Shown: piece by piece, positions 1,668 through 29,111 of the stretch
Layout of the letters: every line of letters starts with the position of its first letter
Position numbering within the stretch: the first letter of the stretch is position 1
Assembly (NCBI GenBank): GCA_016213895.1
Contig: JACQZJ010000095.1
Coordinates: 1 to 34,677 of the forward strand
DNA from: Planctomycetota bacterium
GTDB taxonomy: Bacteria; Planctomycetota; B15-G4; JADJEK01
Reading direction: 5' to 3'
DNA: 34,677 nucleotides
Made by a program: the position numbers and the translations under genes
Notes under the pieces: generated by a model
The model's input: the letters and a program-made list of their open reading frames with translations, nothing else
What the model was told of the DNA's origin: nothing
Database searches by the model: none

Positions 1668-2456
1668 ATGACGGGCGAAAGCGAACAGCAAGGACCCTGG
1701 CCGCGGCCACTGCCGAAGGTGGTGGTCGTGCTGCCGGCCTACAACGCCCAGGAGACGCTGGAGCGCACCTTTCGCGACATCCCGCGGGAGCACGTGGCGG
1801 AGGTCATCCTGGTCGACGACGGTTCGTGCGACGGCACGGTCGAGATCGCGCGCAGCCTGGGCATCACCACCATCCGCCACGAAGAGAACCGCGGCTACGG
1901 CGCCAACCAGAAGACCTGCTACCGCGAGGCCTTGGCGCGCGGCGCGGACATCGTGATCATGGTCCACCCGGACTACCAGTACGACGCGCGCGTCATCCCG
2001 GCCATGACCAGCTTCCTGCGTCTCGGCATCTGCGACGCGGTCTTCGGCTCGCGCGTGCGCACGCGCAGGGAGACCCGGGAGGGCGGCATGCCGCTCTGGA
2101 AGTACGTCGCCAACCGGCTGCTCACCATCACCGAGAACGTCGTGCTCGGCCAGAACCTGGGCGACGCCCACACCGGCCTCCGCGCCTACACCCGAGAGGT
2201 GCTCGAGACCATCCCCTACCAGGCGAACTCGGATGATTTCGTCTTCGACTCGCAGGTGATCAGCCAGCTCGTGCACTTCGGCTTCCGCATCGGCGACGTG
2301 CCCGTGCCCACGCGCTACTTCCGCGAGGCCTCCTCGATCAACTTCCGGCGCAGCCTGCGCTACGGCCTCGGCACGCTCCGGGTGCTCGGCCAGTTCCTGC
2401 TGCAGCGCCTCGGCCTGGCGCGGCCCGCCATCTTCGCGCAGCGGGTCCGGGAATGA
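1668..2456 (+). CDS. GT2 family glycosyltransferase (polyprenol-phosphate sugar transferase type)
   Basis: A 262-residue GT-A fold glycosyltransferase of family 2, close in layout to dolichol/undecaprenyl-phosphate mannose or glucose synthases: it would move a sugar from a nucleotide sugar to a lipid carrier at the cytoplasmic face of the membrane. Seen: the opening strand [14 protein letters not shown] (residues 18-31), the nucleotide-binding VDDGSCDGT (49-57), [11 protein letters not shown] (73-83) and an HPDYQYD segment (100-106) in place of the usual DXD. Unlike many DPM synthases it has no C-terminal transmembrane helices. The gene stands alone between divergent uvrA and the secretin-domain gene, 143 bp from the latter. 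Substrate and acceptor cannot be read from the sequence; a role in surface polysaccharide or flagellin glycosylation is only a guess. Confidence 0.85.
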
Positions 2457-2599: not shown

Positions 2600-3784
2600 A
2601 TGATTCCGTTCTTCCTGTCCAAGGCGCTGCTCGCGGCCGCCTTCGTGCTGCCCGTCCAGCAGGCGGCGACATCGCCTCTTACCGTGCTCGACGGCGAGCA
2701 GATCAAGGTGCAGTTCGATGAGGTCGAGGGCACTCCCCTCTGTGACTTCATCTTCTTGTGCCAGGAGATCACCGGTGTGCAGCTGACGTACAGTCATGCC
2801 GAGATCCTGGACGTGCGGCTGCGCCTGATCGGCGCGCGCACCCTGCCGCGGCAGAAGTTCTGGACCTACTTCCAGTCGGTCCTCAAGGCGCACGGCTTCC
2901 TGCTCGTGCCCTACGGCGAGGCGCAGCCCGGCGCTCCCCTGAGCGGGCCGGGCGCCGGCTTCTACGCCGTGCGCGCCCTGGCTCCGCCCATGGGCCGGCC
3001 GGACTGTCCCTGGCGCGGCCAGGCCCCGTTCGTGCCCGCCGCGCAGCTCGAGAGCATGAAGGATGACTGCGCCATCGTCGTCACGACGACGTTCCAGCTC
3101 GAGCACGCGGACACGCCGGGCGCGGGAGAACGTGTGTTCAACATGCTCCAGGCGTACTTCATGCAGCCGGCCACCGAGTCCGTGCGCGCCGGGGGCGAGA
3201 ACACGCTCGTGGTCACGGGCTGCGCCGACATGCTCTGGCGCATGAGCCGCCTGATCGAAGCGCTGAACTCCGCGCCCGGTGCGGAGGAGAGTTGCGTCGA
3301 GACGATCGAGCTGCGGCACGCCGCGGCCGGCGAGATCCGGCCCATCGTGGCCCGCCTCGCCGGCGCCGAGGGCGCTTCCGGCCCGGGGCCCGTTCCGCAG
3401 CAGGGCTTCCTCCCCCGGGCCGCCGGGGTAGTGGAGGCGGACGAGCGCGCCAACGCCTTGATTGCGCTCGGACCGCGCGAGTTCGTGGAGCGCGTCCGCG
3501 GCCTGGTGGCGTTCCTCGACGTGGAGGTCGAAGGGGAACCGACGGAGACCCGCGTGGTTCCGGCCAAGAACGCGGCGGCGGAGGAGATCGCTGACGTCCT
3601 TCGGGACTGGATCAAGCGCGCCGCGAGCACGAAGGGCGCAAACGTCATTCCCGACGCGCGCACCAACTCGCTCATCGTCTCTGCGCGGCCGAAGGACCTC
3701 GCCGAGCTGATCGAGCTGGTCGAGAAGCTCGATGTCCCCGTCCAGAAGGTGGACGAATCGGCGGCGCCGCCAGAGAGGAACTGA
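2600..3784 (+). CDS. secreted protein with secretin N-domains (N0-N1 repeats) but no secretin barrel
   Basis: A 394-residue exported protein. ATG 2600 is preceded by AGGGAGG at a 6-nt spacing and opens a signal peptide (about residues 1-23, hydrophobic LLAAAFVLPV). Residues about 34-126 look like the N0/STN domain of secretins (IKVQFDEVEGTPLCDFI, then VQLTYSHAEILDVRLRL). Three N1/NolW-like units follow: about 156-224 (TFQLEHAD ... NTLVVTGCADMLWRMSRLIEAL), 233-308 (ETIELRHAAAGEIRPIVARL ... ANALIALGPREFVERVRGL) and 315-381 (ETRVVPAKNAAAEEIADVL ... TNSLIVSARPKDLAELIELV). This is the N0-N1-N2-N3 order of GspD/PilQ, but the protein ends where the membrane barrel should begin. It lies directly upstream of the sigma-54 promoter and flgF operon. 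Function unknown; a periplasmic ring or scaffold is an inference. A lost barrel after a 3' truncation is the alternative. Confidence 0.75.
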   Translation: MIPFFLSKALLAAAFVLPVQQAATSPLTVLDGEQIKVQFDEVEGTPLCDFIFLCQEITGVQLTYSHAEILDVRLRLIGARTLPRQKFWTYFQSVLKAHGFLLVPYGEAQPGAPLSGPGAGFYAVRALAPPMGRPDCPWRGQAPFVPAAQLESMKDDCAIVVTTTFQLEHADTPGAGERVFNMLQAYFMQPATESVRAGGENTLVVTGCADMLWRMSRLIEALNSAPGAEESCVETIELRHAAAGEIRPIVARLAGAEGASGPGPVPQQGFLPRAAGVVEADERANALIALGPREFVERVRGLVAFLDVEVEGEPTETRVVPAKNAAAEEIADVLRDWIKRAASTKGANVIPDARTNSLIVSARPKDLAELIELVEKLDVPVQKVDESAAPPERN

Positions 3785-3804: not shown

Positions 3805-3821
3805 CGGGAAACGTTTTCCGG
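3805..3821 (+). promoter_or_regulatory. palindromic motif copy 1 (CGGGAAACGTTTTCCGG)
   Basis: An AT-containing near-palindrome centred on AAACGTTT, in the 238-bp gap between the secretin-domain gene and flgF and about 165 bp before the sigma-54 promoter. An almost identical 17-mer recurs at 34464-34480 (opposite orientation, 16 of 17), at 27116-27130 (15 of 15 core) and a looser copy at 27484-27500. The AAACGTTT core resembles LacI/PurR-family operators. Binding of a regulator is inferred. Confidence 0.45.
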
Positions 3822-3970
3822 CCTATCCGATGGCTGCGGCGAACGAACTTCCCGCAACTCCTCGCGGACGCCCGGCCCGCGGCGCCGGCGAGAGGACGGG
3901 AAGCCTCTTAAACAACTACTGGTTCGCATCTTCCGGCGCCGGAGCGCTCGTCGCTCCTGGCGCCGCGCGC

Positions 3971-3986
3971 TTGGCACCCGCTTCGC
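3971..3986 (+). promoter_or_regulatory. sigma-54 promoter for the flgF operon
   Basis: TTGGCACCCGCTTCGC carries the -24 element TTGGCAC and a GC at -12, with exactly 10 nt between the invariant GG (3973-3974) and GC (3985-3986). Transcription would start near 3997, giving a leader of about 25 nt to the flgF ATG at 4023. A sigma-54 activator with a GAFTGA loop is encoded in the same cluster (23169 downward), which fits the usual flagellar class II/III control. Confidence 0.7.
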
Positions 3987-4022
3987 TCTCTAACCGCTGG
4001 TTCCTTGTCTCTGGAGCGGGCC

Positions 4023-4733
4023 ATGAACGGTGGCATTCTTCACGCGGCAGCGGCGCTCGACCTGCTCGGCAAGATGCAGGACACTCGGGCGCAGAACCTG
4101 GCCAACGCCAGCACGGTCGGCTATCGCAAGCGCGTCGCGTCCGTGCAGGCTTTCGCCTCGGCCATGCGCCAGGCAGCCGGCCTTACCATTCCCGACTACC
4201 GTGAGGACGTGGACCACACGTCTGGCGTTCTCACGCCGACCGGCCAGAACCTCGACCTGGCCCTGGAGGGCAAGGGCTTCTTCGCGGTCGAGACCGCCAG
4301 GGGCGTGCGCTTCACCCGCAACGGCAACTTCGCCCTGGACGGCCAGGGCTTCCTGGTGGCGCATGACGGAGCGCGGGTGCTCGGCCAGGCCGGGCCCCTC
4401 CAGGCCGATCCGGCGCGCGGTTCGCTTGCCATCGACGCGCGCGGCGAGGTGAGCCAGGACGGGGAGCCCCTCGGCCGCCTGCGCGTGGTCGAGTTCCAGA
4501 ACTTGCAGCGCCTCATCCCGGAGGACAGCGGGCGCTTCCGCGAGGGCCCGGACGCGGAGCCCTTCGAGTCGCTCGAGTCCCGGGTGCAGCAGGGATACCT
4601 GGAGAACGCCAACGTCAACGTGGTTGACGAGCTGGTGGCGATGATCGCCGGGCTGCGCGCCTTCGAGGCCGCGCAGCGCGCCCTCTCCGGAATCGACCGC
4701 ACGCGCGCCGAAGGGCTCGACGCCCGGCGTTAG
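4023..4733 (+). CDS. flgF: flagellar rod protein FlgF (FlgF/FlgG family)
   Basis: A 236-residue rod protein of the FlgF/FlgG family, exported by the flagellar type III system and assembled in the periplasmic rod. Seen: N-terminal helix with TRAQNLANASTVGYRK (the ANNxANxxTxGYK signature), a central GFFAVET and RNGNFALDGQGFLV segment typical of this family, and the C-terminal D0 helix QGYLENANVNVVDELVAMI. ATG 4023 is chosen because GGAG lies about 7 nt upstream; a TTG at 4005 in the same frame would place the start inside the short leader. It is the first gene of the flgFGAHIJNKL operon, 26 nt downstream of the predicted sigma-54 start site. It is assigned flgF rather than flgG because the next gene is the clearer FlgG. 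Confidence 0.88.
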   Translation: MNGGILHAAAALDLLGKMQDTRAQNLANASTVGYRKRVASVQAFASAMRQAAGLTIPDYREDVDHTSGVLTPTGQNLDLALEGKGFFAVETARGVRFTRNGNFALDGQGFLVAHDGARVLGQAGPLQADPARGSLAIDARGEVSQDGEPLGRLRVVEFQNLQRLIPEDSGRFREGPDAEPFESLESRVQQGYLENANVNVVDELVAMIAGLRAFEAAQRALSGIDRTRAEGLDARR

Positions 4734-20751: not shown

Positions 20752-21054
20752 TCACATCGGCATGCGCTGGATCTCCTGGTACGCGTCGATGAGCCGGTTG
20801 CGCACTTCGACCACCAGCCGGAAGGAGGTGTCCGCCTCGGTGATGGCGATCATCACGTCGTGGATGTCCGTGGGCTCGCCCTTGGCGAGCGACTCGGTCA
20901 GCCGGTCGGAGGCCGCGTTCGCCTGGTTGGCGTCCTGGATCAAGTCGCCGAGCAGGCCGGCGAAGCCGCCCGCGCCGCGCGCGCCGCGCTCCGGCTGGGC
21001 ACGCGCCGCGGTCTCGCTCGCGCTCGCGGCCGCGCGGATTGCGGAGACGTCCAT
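20752..21054 (-). CDS. fliE: MS ring-rod junction protein FliE
   Basis: A 100-residue basal-body protein joining the MS ring to the rod. The C-terminal half has the family pattern: ANQANAASDRLTESLAKGEP, TDIHDVMIAITEADTSFRL and VVEVRNRLIDAYQEIQRMPM, very like canonical FliE. ATG 21054 is chosen from homology and lies 2 bp after the flgC stop. The same frame stays open upstream through flgC and flgB all the way into the response regulator, because that gene lacks its own stop (see flgB entry); the coincidence should not be read as one protein. Confidence 0.94.
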   Translation of the reverse strand: MDVSAIRAAASASETAARAQPERGARGAGGFAGLLGDLIQDANQANAASDRLTESLAKGEPTDIHDVMIAITEADTSFRLVVEVRNRLIDAYQEIQRMPM

Positions 21055-21056
21055 TG

Positions 21057-21482
21057 CTACCTCCCGATCTGCAGCGCGGCGTCCACCATGGTGCGGAACG
21101 CCCTGATGCTGCGCAGGTTGGCCTCGTAGGAGCGCATCGCCTCCATGAGGTCGACCATCTCGAAGACCATGTCCACGTTGGGCAGCGTCACCCAGCCGTC
21201 CGCGTCGGCGAGCGGGTGGCCGGGGTCGCTCACGCGCTTGAGCTCGCTCATGTCCGGCACCACGCCGGCGACGCGCACCGAGGGCAGGCGCTCGCGGTCG
21301 CGCGTGCTGCGCTCGACGTACGCCTCGAAGATGACCTCGCGCCGGCGGTAGGGGCCGCCCTCCTCCGTCTTCAGGGTGTGCGCGTTGGCGATGTTGGCCG
21401 CGACCACCTCGAGGCGGCGGCGCTCGGCCTGCATGCCGGCGCCGGCGATGTCCAGGGCGCGAAACGCTTTCATCCCGCTCAT
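21057..21482 (-). CDS. flgC: flagellar proximal rod protein FlgC
   Basis: A 141-residue proximal rod protein. N-terminus KAFRALDIAGAGMQAERRRL then VVAANIANAHTLKTEEGGP matches the FlgC signature; YRRREVIFEAY follows; the C-terminus has GWVTLPNVDMVFEMVDLMEA and MRSYEANLRSIRAFRTMVDA, the D0 helix. Two in-frame ATGs occur (21482 and 21473); either gives a full protein. It lies 15 bp downstream of the flgB remnant and 2 bp upstream of fliE, the usual flgB-flgC-fliE order. Confidence 0.96.
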   Translation of the reverse strand: MSGMKAFRALDIAGAGMQAERRRLEVVAANIANAHTLKTEEGGPYRRREVIFEAYVERSTRDRERLPSVRVAGVVPDMSELKRVSDPGHPLADADGWVTLPNVDMVFEMVDLMEAMRSYEANLRSIRAFRTMVDAALQIGR

Positions 21483-21497
21483 GCTCCGCCTCCGCCG

Positions 21498-21761
21498 TCA
21501 GCGCCCGCCGCTCACGGCGAGACGCATCATCTGCACCTTGTGCTGCAGCACGAGGCTGAGCGCCTGGTAGACGTACTCGACGCGCGTCAACGCGGCGGCC
21601 TCGTCCTCGGCCACGACGTTGTTGCCGTCCACCTCGCCCGCGCTGCGGTCGAGCGTGACCTGCGGTTCGAAGCGGCCGCCGCGCGCCGCGCGCTCGAGCT
21701 GCTCCTCGAAGGACACCGCGGAGCGCTTGAAGCCCGGCGTGCTCTGGTTGGCCAGGTTGGA
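21498..21761 (-). pseudogene. flgB: flgB remnant lacking its N-terminus and start
   Basis: This frame encodes the last 87 residues of a FlgB rod protein: SNLANQSTPGFKRSAVSFEE (the ANxANxxTPGYK signature), LDRSAGEVDGNNVVAEDEAA and the D0 helix TRVEYVYQALSLVLQHKVQM. The first 25 or so residues expected before SNLANQ (the initial helix) are missing: upstream the frame reads low-complexity Ala/Pro/Arg sequence antiframe to the response regulator's end and contains no ATG, GTG or TTG before a stop. The first possible start inside is GTG at 21716, after the signature. The junction sits beside the repeat GGCGCCGG-TG-GGCGCCGG. Either a real deletion fused the regulator to flgB, or the assembly dropped about 100 bp here. 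FlgB is essential for rod assembly elsewhere, so an assembly error is plausible. Confidence 0.8.
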
Positions 21762-21762
21762 C

Positions 21763-23165
<1,403 letters not shown>

Positions 23166-23169
<4 letters not shown>

Positions 23170-24407
23170 GAGCAGCAAGCCTCCGCCGGCAGAGCCTCGG
23201 CCGGCACCGCCAGGACGAACGCCGCGCCCGAGCCGATCCCGGGCCGCATCTCCACCGAGCCGCCGTGCAGTTCGGCGATCCTGCGCACCAGCGCCAGCCC
23301 CAGGCCCGCGCCCTCGGTCTTGGTGGTGAAGAACGGCTCGTAGAGCCGAGCGCGCGCCTCCGCCGGCACGCCAGGTCCCGAGTCGCGCACCTCCAGCTCG
23401 ACCACGCGCGCGCGCTGCCGCGCCGCCAGCTCGAGCCGGCCCGCGCCGCCGAGCGCCTCGAGGGCGTTCTGAATCAGGTTGGTGAGCGCCTGCCGCAGGC
23501 GCGTCTCGTCCCCCGGCACGCACAGGCCGGGCGGGTGGACGGCGATGGACACGTGGATCCCGCGCGCCAGGGAGGGAGCGGCCTGCGCGACGCACTCGAA
23601 CGCGTCGCACAGGAACCTCTCCGCGTCGATCGAGGCGCGCGCCAGCGGCCGCGGCCGCGCCAGGAAGAGGACCGAGTCGATGATCGCGTCCGTGCGCTCC
23701 ACGCCCTCGCAGATGCGCCGCGCCCAGCGGCGCGGAGTCTCGGCGCCCGCCACGCCCTGCAGGTGGCGCTCGAGCATGCCGGCGAAGCCGCGAATGCCGG
23801 AGAGCGGGTTGCGCATCTCGTGGGCGATGATGGCCGCGACCCGGCCCAGCTCAGCCAGACGGTCCAGGCGCTTGACCTCCAGCTCCAGGGCCTTCACCTC
23901 GGAGCGGTCGTTCAGGACCTCGACCAGTCCGAGGTGGTTGCCCGCGGCGTCGCAAACCGGCACCACGCGGTCGTCGATGACGCGCACGCCGCACCCGTTC
24001 TCGATGACGCGCTCCTGCACCTCGGCCGGCCCGTCTGCCAGCAGGAGCAGCGGCCGCCCGGCCGCGTCCCGCAGGCCGGCCGCGGCGCTGCCGATGAGCT
24101 CGGTCCCCTTCCGCTCCAGGATGCCCTCCGCGGCCGGATTGGCCATGAGGATGGTCCCGTCGCATCCGGCCACCACGACCCCGCAGGGAATGGCGCGCAG
24201 CACGGCCGCGAGCGAGCCGGACAGGTTCTCCAGCTCCTCCACCTGCGCCTTGAGCCGCGCGTTCGCGTCGGCCAGGTCGCGGTCGAGGTTCGCCGCGGTG
24301 CGCTGCAGGCCCTCGTAGGCGGCGCGCAGCTTCTCCGCCACGAGCGCGAAGGCGCTGAAGGCGTCCTTCAGCTCGACTGCGTGGTCGCTGCTCGCGTCGA
24401 TCATCAT
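23166..24407 (-). CDS. flrB: soluble PAS-histidine kinase (FlrB/FlgS type)
   Basis: A 413-residue cytoplasmic sensor kinase with no transmembrane segment, as in FlrB/FleS and FlgS. An N-terminal coiled coil (about 20-65) leads to a PAS domain (about 66-170, LAAVLRAIPCGVVVAGCDGT). The HisKA box is AIIAHEMRNPLSGIRG with His196; the ATPase part has LTNLIQNALEAL (N box), VRDSGPGVP (G1) and EGAGLGLALVRRIAELHGG (G2). Start ATG 24407 overlaps the upstream stop (ATGA) with GGAGGAG 5-6 nt before it. It forms the two-component pair with the next gene. In known systems such kinases sense completion of the export gate or MS/C ring; here this would be inference. Confidence 0.9.
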
Positions 24408-25273
24408 CGCGTCTCCTCCCGCGCCTGCGGGCGCGCGCCGACCACGCCGCTCTGCACGCGCTCCATGCGCTCGAGCTGGCGGCGCGCGCTCTCGCTCAAC
24501 GCGCGCCGTTCGCCAACCTCCTGCACGCAGAGCAGCGCCTGGCGCGCCGCGGCGTAGTCGCGCTTCTCGATCAGGGCGCAGCCCAGGACGTAGAGCGCGT
24601 CGGGCGCGATCCCGCGCGGCTCGCGGCCGCCGAGGAGGCGGATGACGCCGTCCATGTCGCCCTGCCTGAAGGCCAGGAGCGCCTCGTGCGCGGGATCGCT
24701 CGGAAGCCAGTTCTCCTGCTCGCGCGGCGCCGCCTCCTGGCCCGCCGCGCTCCCCTGCTCCGCCTGCGCGCCCGGCGCGGGCTCCAGGTCGAGCCCGGGC
24801 GCGGTCTCCGCGCCCTCGCTCGCCACCAGCTCGGCGACGTCGCGCAGGCCCTCGTTCGGGTCGTTGAGCGAGGGCGCGCGCAGCTCCAGCAGGCGCAGCT
24901 TGGCGCGCAATCCGCTCACCTCGTCCGCCAGCACCTCGATCTGCGCGGCGCGTTTCTCGCTCACGCCGATGTCGCGCAGGCCCACCTCGTCTCCTTGCCT
25001 CTCCTGCAGGAACTGCGCCGCTCCGCCTTCCTCCGCCGAGACCAGGCCGTCGAGCGTCTGGTAGAGCGCCGCCACCTCAGCCTCGAGCGCCACGATCGCC
25101 GGCAGGTGCGCCTCCGGGTGCTCCAGCAGGTTCTCCAGCTGCGGCGCGGGCGCGGCGCCGCCAGCCTGCGCGCCGCTCGCCGCGCTCGACTCGGGCGCGC
25201 TTTCCGGGGCGGCCGGGGGCGCGGCGTCCTGAGCAAGCAGCACGAGCAGCAGGGCGCAGAGGGCGGCGGTCAT
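24404..25273 (-). CDS. exported coiled-coil/TPR-like protein of unknown function
   Basis: I do not recognise this 289-residue protein. ATG 25273 (ATGA overlap with the upstream gene, GGAGGAG 5 nt before) opens a signal peptide or anchor (MTAALCALLLVLLAQ). A Pro/Ala/Ser-rich linker is followed by a helical coiled-coil region (about 55-135, PAIVALEAEVAALYQTLDGL, AQIEVLADEVSGLRAKLRLL) and a C-terminal TPR-like part (about 205-280, EALLAFRQGDMDGVIRLLGG, DALYVLGCALIEKRDYAAA) in which pairs of helices repeat. It is the third of three unknown envelope-type genes at the head of this operon and overlaps the kinase gene. The tight coupling suggests a role in flagellar assembly or in sensing its state; a YbgF/CpoB-like envelope role is another possibility. 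Confidence 0.65.
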   Translation of the reverse strand: MTAALCALLLVLLAQDAAPPAAPESAPESSAASGAQAGGAAPAPQLENLLEHPEAHLPAIVALEAEVAALYQTLDGLVSAEEGGAAQFLQERQGDEVGLRDIGVSEKRAAQIEVLADEVSGLRAKLRLLELRAPSLNDPNEGLRDVAELVASEGAETAPGLDLEPAPGAQAEQGSAAGQEAAPREQENWLPSDPAHEALLAFRQGDMDGVIRLLGGREPRGIAPDALYVLGCALIEKRDYAAARQALLCVQEVGERRALSESARRQLERMERVQSGVVGARPQAREETR

Positions 25274-26841
25274 GGCTTCTCCTCCGCGGCGCCCAGCGCG
25301 CCGCTCTCGCCGTTCAGCAAGCGGCGCGCGCCCTGGTAGTCGCCCAGCGCCTCGAGGCACTCGACGCCGAGGAGCGCGACCTCCTCCCGCGCGCCTGGCG
25401 GCAGCCCGTCCGCGGCCAGGCGCGCCAGCACCAGGCGCGCGCGCTCCGGTTCGCCCGCCGCGAGCAGGGCGCGGGCGATTCCCATCTTCGCCTGGTGGCG
25501 CACGCTCTCGTGCTGCAGCGATTCCTGGAAGAGGAGGCGCGCGCGCTCCGGCTCCCCGTCCTCGAGCGCCATGTGCGCCGAGCGCAGGGCAAGTTGCGCG
25601 GCTTCCTCTGGAGAACCGAGCTGCTCCGCCTCGTAGAAGTGGCGGCGCGCGCGCAGCGTCAGGCCGAGGTCCTGGAAAGCGTCACCCAGCGCCAGATTGG
25701 CGCGCAGGCGCACCGCCGGCCCGGCGTCCGGGGCGGCGAGCGCGGCGCCGGCCAGGAGGATCCCGGCCGCGGCGCGCCCCGCGCGCAGCTCCAGCTCGGC
25801 GAAGGCCATCAGGGCCGAGGCCGCGGGGGGCCCTGCGCCCTCCGCGAACAGGCCGGCCGAGGATCTGAGGATGGTCGCCGCGGACATCGGGTCGGGCCGC
25901 GCCTGCGCCACCAGGGCGAGCGCCAGCACCGGGGCGAGCACGGCGTTCCCTTGCGGGTCCCGCAGCCACAGGTCATGCAGCAGCGTGACCGCCGCCTCGG
26001 CGCGCCCGGCCTCGATGAGGAGCGACGCCGCGTCCGCGAGGCGCTCGAGCGTCTCCGGCGAGATCACGTCGAGCTTCTTGAACGCCTCGCGCAGGTCCTC
26101 GATCTCGCGCAGGCTCGACTCCTCGATGAGCAGCCCGAGCAGCCGCCGCAGGGCGCGGTCGCGCACGCCGCTGTCGCCGCACTTGCCGAGGAAGGCGCGC
26201 AGCAGCTGGGCGGCGCGCACGCGGTCCCCCACCGCCATGTAGCAGTCGGCGAGCAGCAGCTCGCAATCGCGCGCCGCCTCCGCGGAGGGAAAGCGCGAGA
26301 GCAGGGTCTCGTAGCTGGCGAAGGCCGACTTGACGTCGCCGCTCCGGCGCTGCAGCTCCGCCAGCCCCCTGATGGTGAGGGCCGTGACCGCGGCGTCGCG
26401 CTGGCGCAGCAGCGCCATGTTGTAGAACCTCTCCGCCGACCAGCGCAGGCCGGCGCGCACGCGCGGCGCGCCCGGCCGCGGCGGCCCCATCACGCGGTAG
26501 ACGTCGAGGTCCCGCTCCACGTCCACGCCGGAGGCCGCGGCGATCAGCTCGATGATGTACTCCGCGCGCCGTTCGTGCAGGTCGAGGGTGAGGATCGTGG
26601 TCTTCAGCGGGACCTCGGCCAGCGGGTCGACGATCACCGCCGCCTCGCCCGTGCCGACGAGCAGCGCCAGGAACTCGGAGGCCGGACAGTCCCTCCCGCG
26701 CACGGTGAAGAGGCTCTCGCCGTCGACCTGCGGCGCCGCGTGCGCCTCGGGCCGGGCCGGCAGCAGCCTCTCCTGGTCGCCCGCCGCGGCCGGCAGCGCG
26801 TGGAGCGCGCAGGCCAGGGCCAGCCAGCAGATCCTCCTCAT
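25270..26841 (-). CDS. exported STN-like domain plus TPR-repeat protein, unknown function
   Basis: A 523-residue protein I cannot assign to a named family. ATG 26841 overlaps the upstream stop (ATGA), with GGAGGG before it, and opens a signal peptide (MRRICWLALACALHALPAAA). Residues about 35-115 look like an STN/secretin N0 domain: VDGESLFTVRGRDCPASEFL, VPLKTTILTLDLHERRAEYI and GVDVERDLDVYRVMG. From about residue 130 to the end there are many TPR-like helical pairs (LAELQRRSGDVKSAFASYET, ELLLADCYMAVGDRVRAAQL, GDAFQDLGLTLRARRHFYEA, AHMALEDGEPERARLLFQES, ECLEALGDYQGARRLLNGE). STN domain plus TPR suggests a periplasmic scaffold. The barrel-less secretin at 2600-3784 carries a similar N0-type domain, hinting at a shared complex. 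Confidence 0.65.
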   Translation of the reverse strand: MRRICWLALACALHALPAAAGDQERLLPARPEAHAAPQVDGESLFTVRGRDCPASEFLALLVGTGEAAVIVDPLAEVPLKTTILTLDLHERRAEYIIELIAAASGVDVERDLDVYRVMGPPRPGAPRVRAGLRWSAERFYNMALLRQRDAAVTALTIRGLAELQRRSGDVKSAFASYETLLSRFPSAEAARDCELLLADCYMAVGDRVRAAQLLRAFLGKCGDSGVRDRALRRLLGLLIEESSLREIEDLREAFKKLDVISPETLERLADAASLLIEAGRAEAAVTLLHDLWLRDPQGNAVLAPVLALALVAQARPDPMSAATILRSSAGLFAEGAGPPAASALMAFAELELRAGRAAAGILLAGAALAAPDAGPAVRLRANLALGDAFQDLGLTLRARRHFYEAEQLGSPEEAAQLALRSAHMALEDGEPERARLLFQESLQHESVRHQAKMGIARALLAAGEPERARLVLARLAADGLPPGAREEVALLGVECLEALGDYQGARRLLNGESGALGAAEEKP

Positions 26842-27603: not shown

Positions 27604-29111
27604 ATGACCGGCATCTCACTCTGCGCCATCACCCGCGACGAGGAGGAGCGGCTCCCGCGCATGCTCGACTCGGTGCGCGGCCTCGTCTCCGAGATCGTCG
27701 TGGTGGACACCGGCTCCCTCGACGGCACCGCCGAGATCGCGCGCCGGCGCGGCGCGCGCGTCATCCATCACCCCTTCCGCGACGACTTCTCCGAGGTGCG
27801 CAACGTCGCGCTGGCCGCGGCCAAGCAGCCCTGGATCTTGGTGCTGGACGCCGACGAGCAGCTCGACGCGGCGGCAGGGCCCGTCATTCGCCGCGCGCTG
27901 CGCGAGCGCGGCCGCGCCGGGTTCCACCTGCACTTCATCAACGACCTCGGGGGCGGCCGCCAGCACGTGCATGCCCTGGTGCGCCTGTTCCGCAACGATC
28001 GCTCCATTCGCTTCCGCTACCTCATCCATGAGCAGATCCTGCCCGACCTCCTCGACTACTGCCGCAGGCGCGGCGCCACCATCGGCCTGCTCGAGCAGGC
28101 CGTGGTGCGTCACGACGGTTACCTGCCGGAGCGCGCGCGGGAACGCGGCAAGGACGAGCGCAACGAGCGCCTCCTGCGGCGGCAGGTGGAGCGGTTACCC
28201 GACCAGCCCTATTCCTGGTACAAGTTCGGCGACTTCTTGCGGCGTTTCGCCGAGCGCCGCGCCGAGGCCGCCGCCGCCCTCGAACGCGCCGCCGCCCTGC
28301 TGCGCGCCATGGACGCGCGCGCGGCCCAGGAGCTCTCCTTCTCCGCCGAGGTCTTCGCCCTGCTCGCCGTCGACAGCGACCGCGCCGGCGACCCGGAGCG
28401 CGCGCTGCGCTTCGCCTGCGAGGGGCGCGAGCGCTTCCCGGCCACGCCGAACCTCCTCTACGCCAGCGGCCACCTGCTGGCGAAGTTCGGGCGGCACCGC
28501 GAGGCCTTCGCCGCCTACGCGCGCCTGCGCGCGCTGCGCGACCGCCTCATGGCCGTCTGTTCGGCATGGGCCGCGCCCTGGTCAACCTCGGACACGTGCG
28601 CGCCGGGCGCCGCTGCCTGGAGCTGAGCGTGGCCCAGAAGCCGCGCGCGGCCGAGCCCTACGTCCTTCTGGCGCGCCTCTACCTCGATCTGAACCGCCTG
28701 CCGGAGGCCCTCGACCTCTACCGCGAGGCGCTGCGCCGCGAGCCCGGCGACGCGTCCCTGCGCCTGCGCCTCGGCGCCGTGCTGCTTTACCTGCGCCGCC
28801 CGCGCGAGGCCCTGGCCGAGTTTCGCGCGGCCAAGGAGCGCGGCGCCGCCGCGGGCGTGGTCGAGCCGCGCATCGGCGCGGCGCTGCTCGCGCTCGGCGA
28901 GATCGACGCGGCGCGCGCCGCCTGCGCCGCCGCCGGAGACGCGCCCGAGGCGCGCGCCGGCAGCAGGCTGCTCGAGCTGTTGGCGGCGGGCGCGGACCCG
29001 GCGCAGGATCCGGAGCTGGCGCGACCCGCGGCGCGCACCTGGCTGCGCTGCCTGGCCCTCTCGCCTCTGGCCGGCGCCCCGGCCGCGCCCGTCCTTCAGG
29101 GCGACAAGTAG
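27604..29111 (+). pseudogene. GT2 glycosyltransferase with C-terminal TPR repeats, broken by a frameshift near 28557
   Basis: The N-terminal frame (ATG 27604 to about 28557) encodes a GT2 domain: SLCAITRDEEERLPRMLDSV, EIVVVDTGSLDGTAEIARRR, VLDADEQLD (DXD-like), then helical repeats. The second frame (28557 to 29111) continues the TPR part without a break in homology: GRALVNLGHVRAGRRCLELS, YVLLARLYLDLNRLPEALDL. At the junction the DNA reads ATGGCCGTCTGTTCGGCATGGG; one extra C after GTC would restore Met-Ala-Val-Leu-Phe-Gly-Met-Gly and a single protein of about 500 residues. In the present sequence the first frame ends at 28626. A real frameshift or a sequencing error both fit. GT2-TPR proteins beside flagellin genes are sometimes flagellin-modifying; that role here is inferred. 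The 3' end overlaps convergent motB by 16 bp. Confidence 0.75.

Follow-up and report, generated by a model that had tools for sequence, protein, structure and literature searches.

A barrel-less paralogue of the type II secretin GspD encoded directly upstream of flgF in a Planctomycetota bacterium

The analysed stretch of DNA, here called the window, comprises 34,677 nucleotides from a Planctomycetota bacterium (assembly GCA_016213895.1, contig JACQZJ010000095.1; genome G000). Table 1 lists its features around flgF, with which the rod/ring operon flgF-G-A-H-I... begins. An intact open reading frame with an ATG start and a good ribosome-binding sequence (GGGAGG) just 5' of it encodes a protein of 394 amino acids, named SEC here. 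The first-pass annotation of the window had described SEC as a secretin made up of the periplasmic domains N0-N1-N2-N3 only, ending before the outer-membrane barrel, and this was confirmed by Pfam, NCBIfam, AlphaFold2 and Foldseek, and by orthologues that end alike. The N-terminus resembles a signal peptide; no lipobox was seen in the translation read by eye. Between SEC and its orthologue from the same genus (G001), dN/dS was about 0.47 (NG86) or 0.18 (YN00), which is higher than for most neighbouring genes. Since dN/dS is below 1 and two orthologues keep both length and end point, SEC is a coding sequence and not a chance frame. Scans for sigma-70 promoters and terminators around SEC found nothing, and RNA folding 3' of the gene revealed nothing notable.

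Table 1. Coordinates of SEC, its domains and the adjoining flgF promoter region in the window.
Feature	Position	Strand	Basis
GT2 glycosyltransferase upstream of SEC	1668..2456	+	Pfam, gene neighbourhoods
SEC, barrel-less secretin paralogue, N0-N1-N2-N3 only	2600..3784	+	ORF, profiles, alignment, AlphaFold2, Foldseek
SEC signal-peptide-like N-terminus (MIPFFLSKALLAAAFVLPVQQAA)	2600..2668	+	read from translation by eye
N0 domain, residues 27-125	2678..2974	+	AlphaFold2 secondary structure; weak PF21305 match
N1 domain, residues 160-224	3077..3271	+	Pfam, AlphaFold2
N2 domain, residues 231-306	3290..3517	+	Pfam, AlphaFold2
N3 domain, residues 316-377	3545..3730	+	alignment to GspD, Pfam, AlphaFold2
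Shortened N3 loop between W337 and N356, 19 residues	3611..3664	+	alignment; 36-56 residues in full-length GspDs of the phylum
Inverted repeat GGAAACGTTTTCC, candidate activator site (UAS) of the flgF promoter	3807..3819	.	conserved before flgF in G001, G002, G003
Degenerate second UAS copy	3840-3852
flgF sigma-54 promoter TGGCACCCGCTTCGCT	3972..3987	+	sequence motif; conserved in four genomes
flgF, first gene of rod/ring operon	4023..4733	+	ORF calls, profiles

Profile searches against the secretin N-domain families yielded two stretches of Pfam Secretin_N (PF03958, E=3.4e-31) and a weak match to the GspD N0 domain (PF21305, 0.012), the latter backed by alignment to GspD N0 and by AlphaFold2 and Foldseek. 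No Pfam match to the secretin barrel (PF00263) was obtained, and both the protein and its orthologues stop after N3, at a point directly past which full-length GspD runs into the barrel in the alignment. The NCBIfam GspD model matched SEC with E=3.7e-31 and 108 bits, below its equivalog cut-off of 351 bits since SEC corresponds to the N half alone. The AlphaFold2 model, built from five aligned sequences with a mean pLDDT of 66, contained N0 followed by beta-alpha-beta-beta-alpha repeats at the positions of N1, N2 and N3 and a disordered tail of about 17 residues. In a Foldseek search of this model against the PDB, the top hits were type II secretins only, including PulD (6hcg, E=2e-13) and the N0-N1-N2 part of XcpQ (5mp2, E=1.5e-10); the low TM-scores are due to the uncertainty with which the model places its domains. 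A phmmer search of PDB sequences likewise returned only secretins (13 of 14 type II GspDs, the remaining one a type IV piliation secretin).

Orthologues of 393 and 390 amino acids with the same end point were found in G001 (84% identity) and in another genus of the same family, G002 (about 37-38%), and in both they lie directly upstream of flgF, with gaps of 241 bp and 207 bp, respectively, as compared to 238 bp in the window. Length and position are thus common to three genomes from two genera, and the possibility that SEC is a truncated full-length secretin was not borne out. Agreement among three separate assemblies also ruled out a truncation or assembly artefact, and a chimera that had lost its barrel downstream was ruled out by the lack of a barrel match on contig C54. 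In the phylogenetic tree, the G002 protein fell nearer to a second poreless paralogue, SEC2 (support 84/81), so that a strict tree-based orthology was not upheld; a single SEC clade was not rejected (AU p=0.30), and orthology of the G002 protein therefore rests on position. The GT2 glycosyltransferase gene adjoins SEC-flgF in G001 as well, and is two genes away in G002. In G003, a flagellated member of the same family from a third genus with a draft 84% complete, SEC was not found, and the neighbour of flgF is a divergent gene, M1 peptidase-like by eye. In four flagellated genomes of sister family f3 (G005, G007, G009, G011), SEC is absent beside flgF and other genes lie upstream.

The sigma-54 site noted before flgF, and the size of the gap containing it, proved right. 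The promoter takes the form TGGCA[C/T]CC or TGGCACCG, then GCTTCGC/GGTTCGC, and is conserved together with a GGAAN5TTCC repeat in four genomes. In all three genomes having SEC, both elements lie between SEC and flgF, and neither was found upstream of SEC. No sign of co-regulation of SEC with the flgF operon was therefore seen in these motifs. The GGAAN5TTCC repeat occurs three times in the window (at 3807, 27117 and 34466), as compared to 0.12 expected occurrences, and these repeats are likely sites of the flagellar sigma-54 activator. In G001, counterparts are found at flgF, within the gene that precedes the TPR operon, and ahead of a fliO/P/Q/R-flhB-flhA-like operon.

The first-pass annotation had seen no type II secretion gene, which holds within the window but not for the genome: contig C14 carries a gspDEFGHIJ operon encoding a full-length GspD of 758 amino acids, and the genome has 12 secretin-barrel matches in all. 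The closest relative of SEC, the genome's own GspD, had thus been overlooked. SEC shares with it, and with PulD, XcpQ and EpsD, the order and fold of N0-N1-N2-N3, and is about 41% identical to the C14 protein over the N part, but it lacks the barrel, has an N3 loop reduced to 19 residues and is encoded outside the gsp operon. SEC2, of 383 amino acids, is encoded on contig C99, away from flagellar genes, and has the same length in G001. In a tree of the N0-N3 part, SEC and SEC2 formed one clade (97/95) that was sister to the GspDs of their own family f1 (98/97); the GspDs of two sister families fell outside this group, and the grouping was reproduced in a larger set. Thus, SEC is a duplicated gspD that has lost its barrel, and the simplest history suggested by the tree would be a gspD duplication in the family ancestor, loss of the barrel and then a second duplication. 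The order within the SEC/SEC2 clade is unsure since the SEC stem branch is long (about 1.0 change per site after the duplication) and its composition deviates. The usual inner-membrane partner of the GspD N0 domain is GspC. GspC (PF11356) was not detected in 14 genomes of the order, although every one of these genomes had GspD, and gspE/F turned up wherever the operon was read. Thus, even full-length GspD must rely here on a different inner-membrane partner or on one that has diverged strongly.

Across 294 genomes of the phylum, which were searched for N-domain matches in short open frames, further such matches were obtained, and a subset of the loci was read. Among those read, poreless proteins ending soon after N3 were found in family f59 (378-390 amino acids) and in G026 (one of 379 amino acids). 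The proteins of families f59/f16 formed a second poreless clade separate from that of SEC (98/97), which points to two or more losses of the barrel. In all nine poreless N0-N3 proteins, from both clades, 15-27 residues separate the alignment columns of W337 and N356, as compared to 36-56 residues in 25 full-length GspDs, and what is lacking is the Gly-rich N3 loop. This loop presumably corresponds to the constriction of GspD. The N3 domain of GspD is known to carry a constriction site (PMC9251779). That both this loop and the pore are gone would suit a ring without a gating function any more. Poreless copies also occur in genomes holding long secretin frames, and at the loci read, none of them belonged to a gsp operon.

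Other short secretin-N proteins were also seen. Proteins with N0-N1 only occur in G002, G010 and G013, three of them with a coiled-coil-like C-terminal tail, and they stand in tandem in G029 (two to three copies; L121, 4605-7235) and in G013 (L051, 9586-11208). At three loci of family f59 (L112, L114, L116), a poreless secretin N-domain protein is encoded near a weak PspA/IM30-like protein; at L112, a Ser/Thr kinase and an FHA-GAF sigma-54 activator are also found nearby. Psp systems respond to misplaced secretins.

The location of SEC could be taken to suggest a lineage-specific flagellar accessory, i.e., a secretin-derived periplasmic ring or collar round or beside the rod, or under the P ring. 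SEC directly precedes flgF in all three genomes, and the adjacency survives in a second genus at only about 37% identity, which hints at some coupling. Moreover, injectisomes, which are relatives of flagella, recruited secretins, and the same domain type surrounds their needle (PMC3459982). The P and L ring proteins FlgI and FlgH, encoded a few genes downstream of SEC, also form periplasmic or outer-membrane rings. They show no sequence similarity to SEC in family searches, and since both normal rings are present (FlgH in G000 and G001), SEC replaces neither. The first-pass annotation had proposed that a free N-domain ring might line the rod or the P/L ring; this is opposed by the position of SEC outside the promoter and UAS block of flgF, by the flagellated relatives described above and by size. 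The N0-N1-N2 ring of XcpQ has an outer diameter of 120 Å and a cavity no wider than 60 Å (PMC5646246). The rod measures 130 Å and the LP ring 135 Å inside (PMC8298488); thus, a ring of known size cannot surround the rod, and about twice the usual stoichiometry would be needed. SEC does not accompany flagella consistently, as seen in G003 and at flgF in the f3 genomes, although these drafts are incomplete. Poreless relatives, in turn, occur in genomes without a FlgI match, such as those of the second poreless clade, and in non-flagellar loci of the same genomes (SEC2). Gene order is likewise kept around gspD, where rpiB and other neighbours (identified by eye) recur in G000, G002, G003 and even G008, i.e., among genes without obvious shared function, so that the SEC-flgF adjacency in two genera is weak evidence. 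The further proposal that SEC docks an STN-TPR protein encoded at 25270-26841 fared no better: the TPRs are real, but the STN part was recovered neither by Pfam nor by shallow profile comparison, and G003 has the protein although no SEC was found there. None of these arguments is decisive alone; together they make a flagellar role rather unlikely, i.e., possible but not favoured. Recruitment of a secretin periplasmic ring into the bacterial flagellum as a lineage-specific accessory ring, echoing that of the injectisomes, appears slightly more doubtful still. No literature on secretins in flagella of Planctomycetes was found and, if true, such a role would be a novel connection between secretins and flagella.

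Encoding a secretin N-terminal part without a barrel has a precedent in RhcC1 (NolW) of rhizobial type III secretion, which works together with the barrel protein RhcC2 (PMC3459982), and SEC could similarly be one half of a split secretin. The genome does contain secretin-barrel genes in which few N domains, or none, are recognised. However, no barrel gene (PF00263) was found in the window, on contig C54 or next to SEC in the three genomes, whereas rhizobial rhcC1 sits among other core genes of its system. RhcC1 also represents the first N-domain region only and is of type III secretin origin, while SEC descends from GspD and keeps all of N0-N3, yet lacks the N3 loop; a split secretin is thus very improbable. 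Functionless decay of a gspD copy, for which the long stem branch and the elevated dN/dS could be taken as signs, has marginally less to recommend it, given that the frame is open and stops at the same point in all three genomes, that dN/dS is below 1 and that SEC shares the loss of the N3 loop with other poreless proteins. A type II accessory, i.e., an extra N-domain ring or substrate adaptor docking to the GspEFGHIJ platform or to GspD, is a special case of the reading favoured below and would agree with the descent of SEC from GspD, the gspDEFGHIJ operon in the genome and the poreless copies in genomes also holding long secretin frames. The lack of poreless copies inside gsp operons among the loci read, and of a detectable GspC, argues against it, and it is put forward tentatively, being a minority possibility. 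It is nevertheless the most likely specific role, ahead of a role outside both machines and of the flagellum.

As judged from sequence, SEC has kept N0-N3 but neither the barrel nor the Gly-rich N3 loop. Probably, though by no means certainly, SEC is a neofunctionalised copy of the lineage's own type II secretin that acts as a free periplasmic N-domain oligomer or adaptor and not as a part of the rod or P/L ring. SEC would be exported to the periplasm and would self-assemble via its N domains. The N0-N1-N2 part of XcpQ forms dodecameric rings without a barrel (PDB 5mp2, 4e9j, 5ngi; PMC5646246), although this construct was made in the laboratory and lacks N3. The product would be an ungated ring or adaptor rather than a pore, and it could bind periplasmic partners or substrates that are normally bound by the N domains of GspD; a non-oligomeric role may also apply. 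The place beside flgF would then reflect an inherited neighbourhood with separate transcription. Secretin N-domain rings can thus exist apart from the pore and persist on their own in the periplasm. This has probably come about on more than one occasion within the phylum, the N3 loop disappearing in every case, which makes the poreless proteins natural test cases for N-domain function alone.

Two further gene structures in the window are of note. On the minus strand, one uninterrupted frame of 952 amino acids (20752-23610) covers an AtoC-type regulator, continues across flgB/flgC and has FliE at its end; flgB was called at only 72 amino acids, and a disrupted reading frame is possible near 21720. 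The GT2-TPR gene, which starts at 27604, forms a single frame of 513 amino acids in G001 and two frames in the window, the break near 28557 (28500-28620) being presumably either a frameshift or a sequence error.
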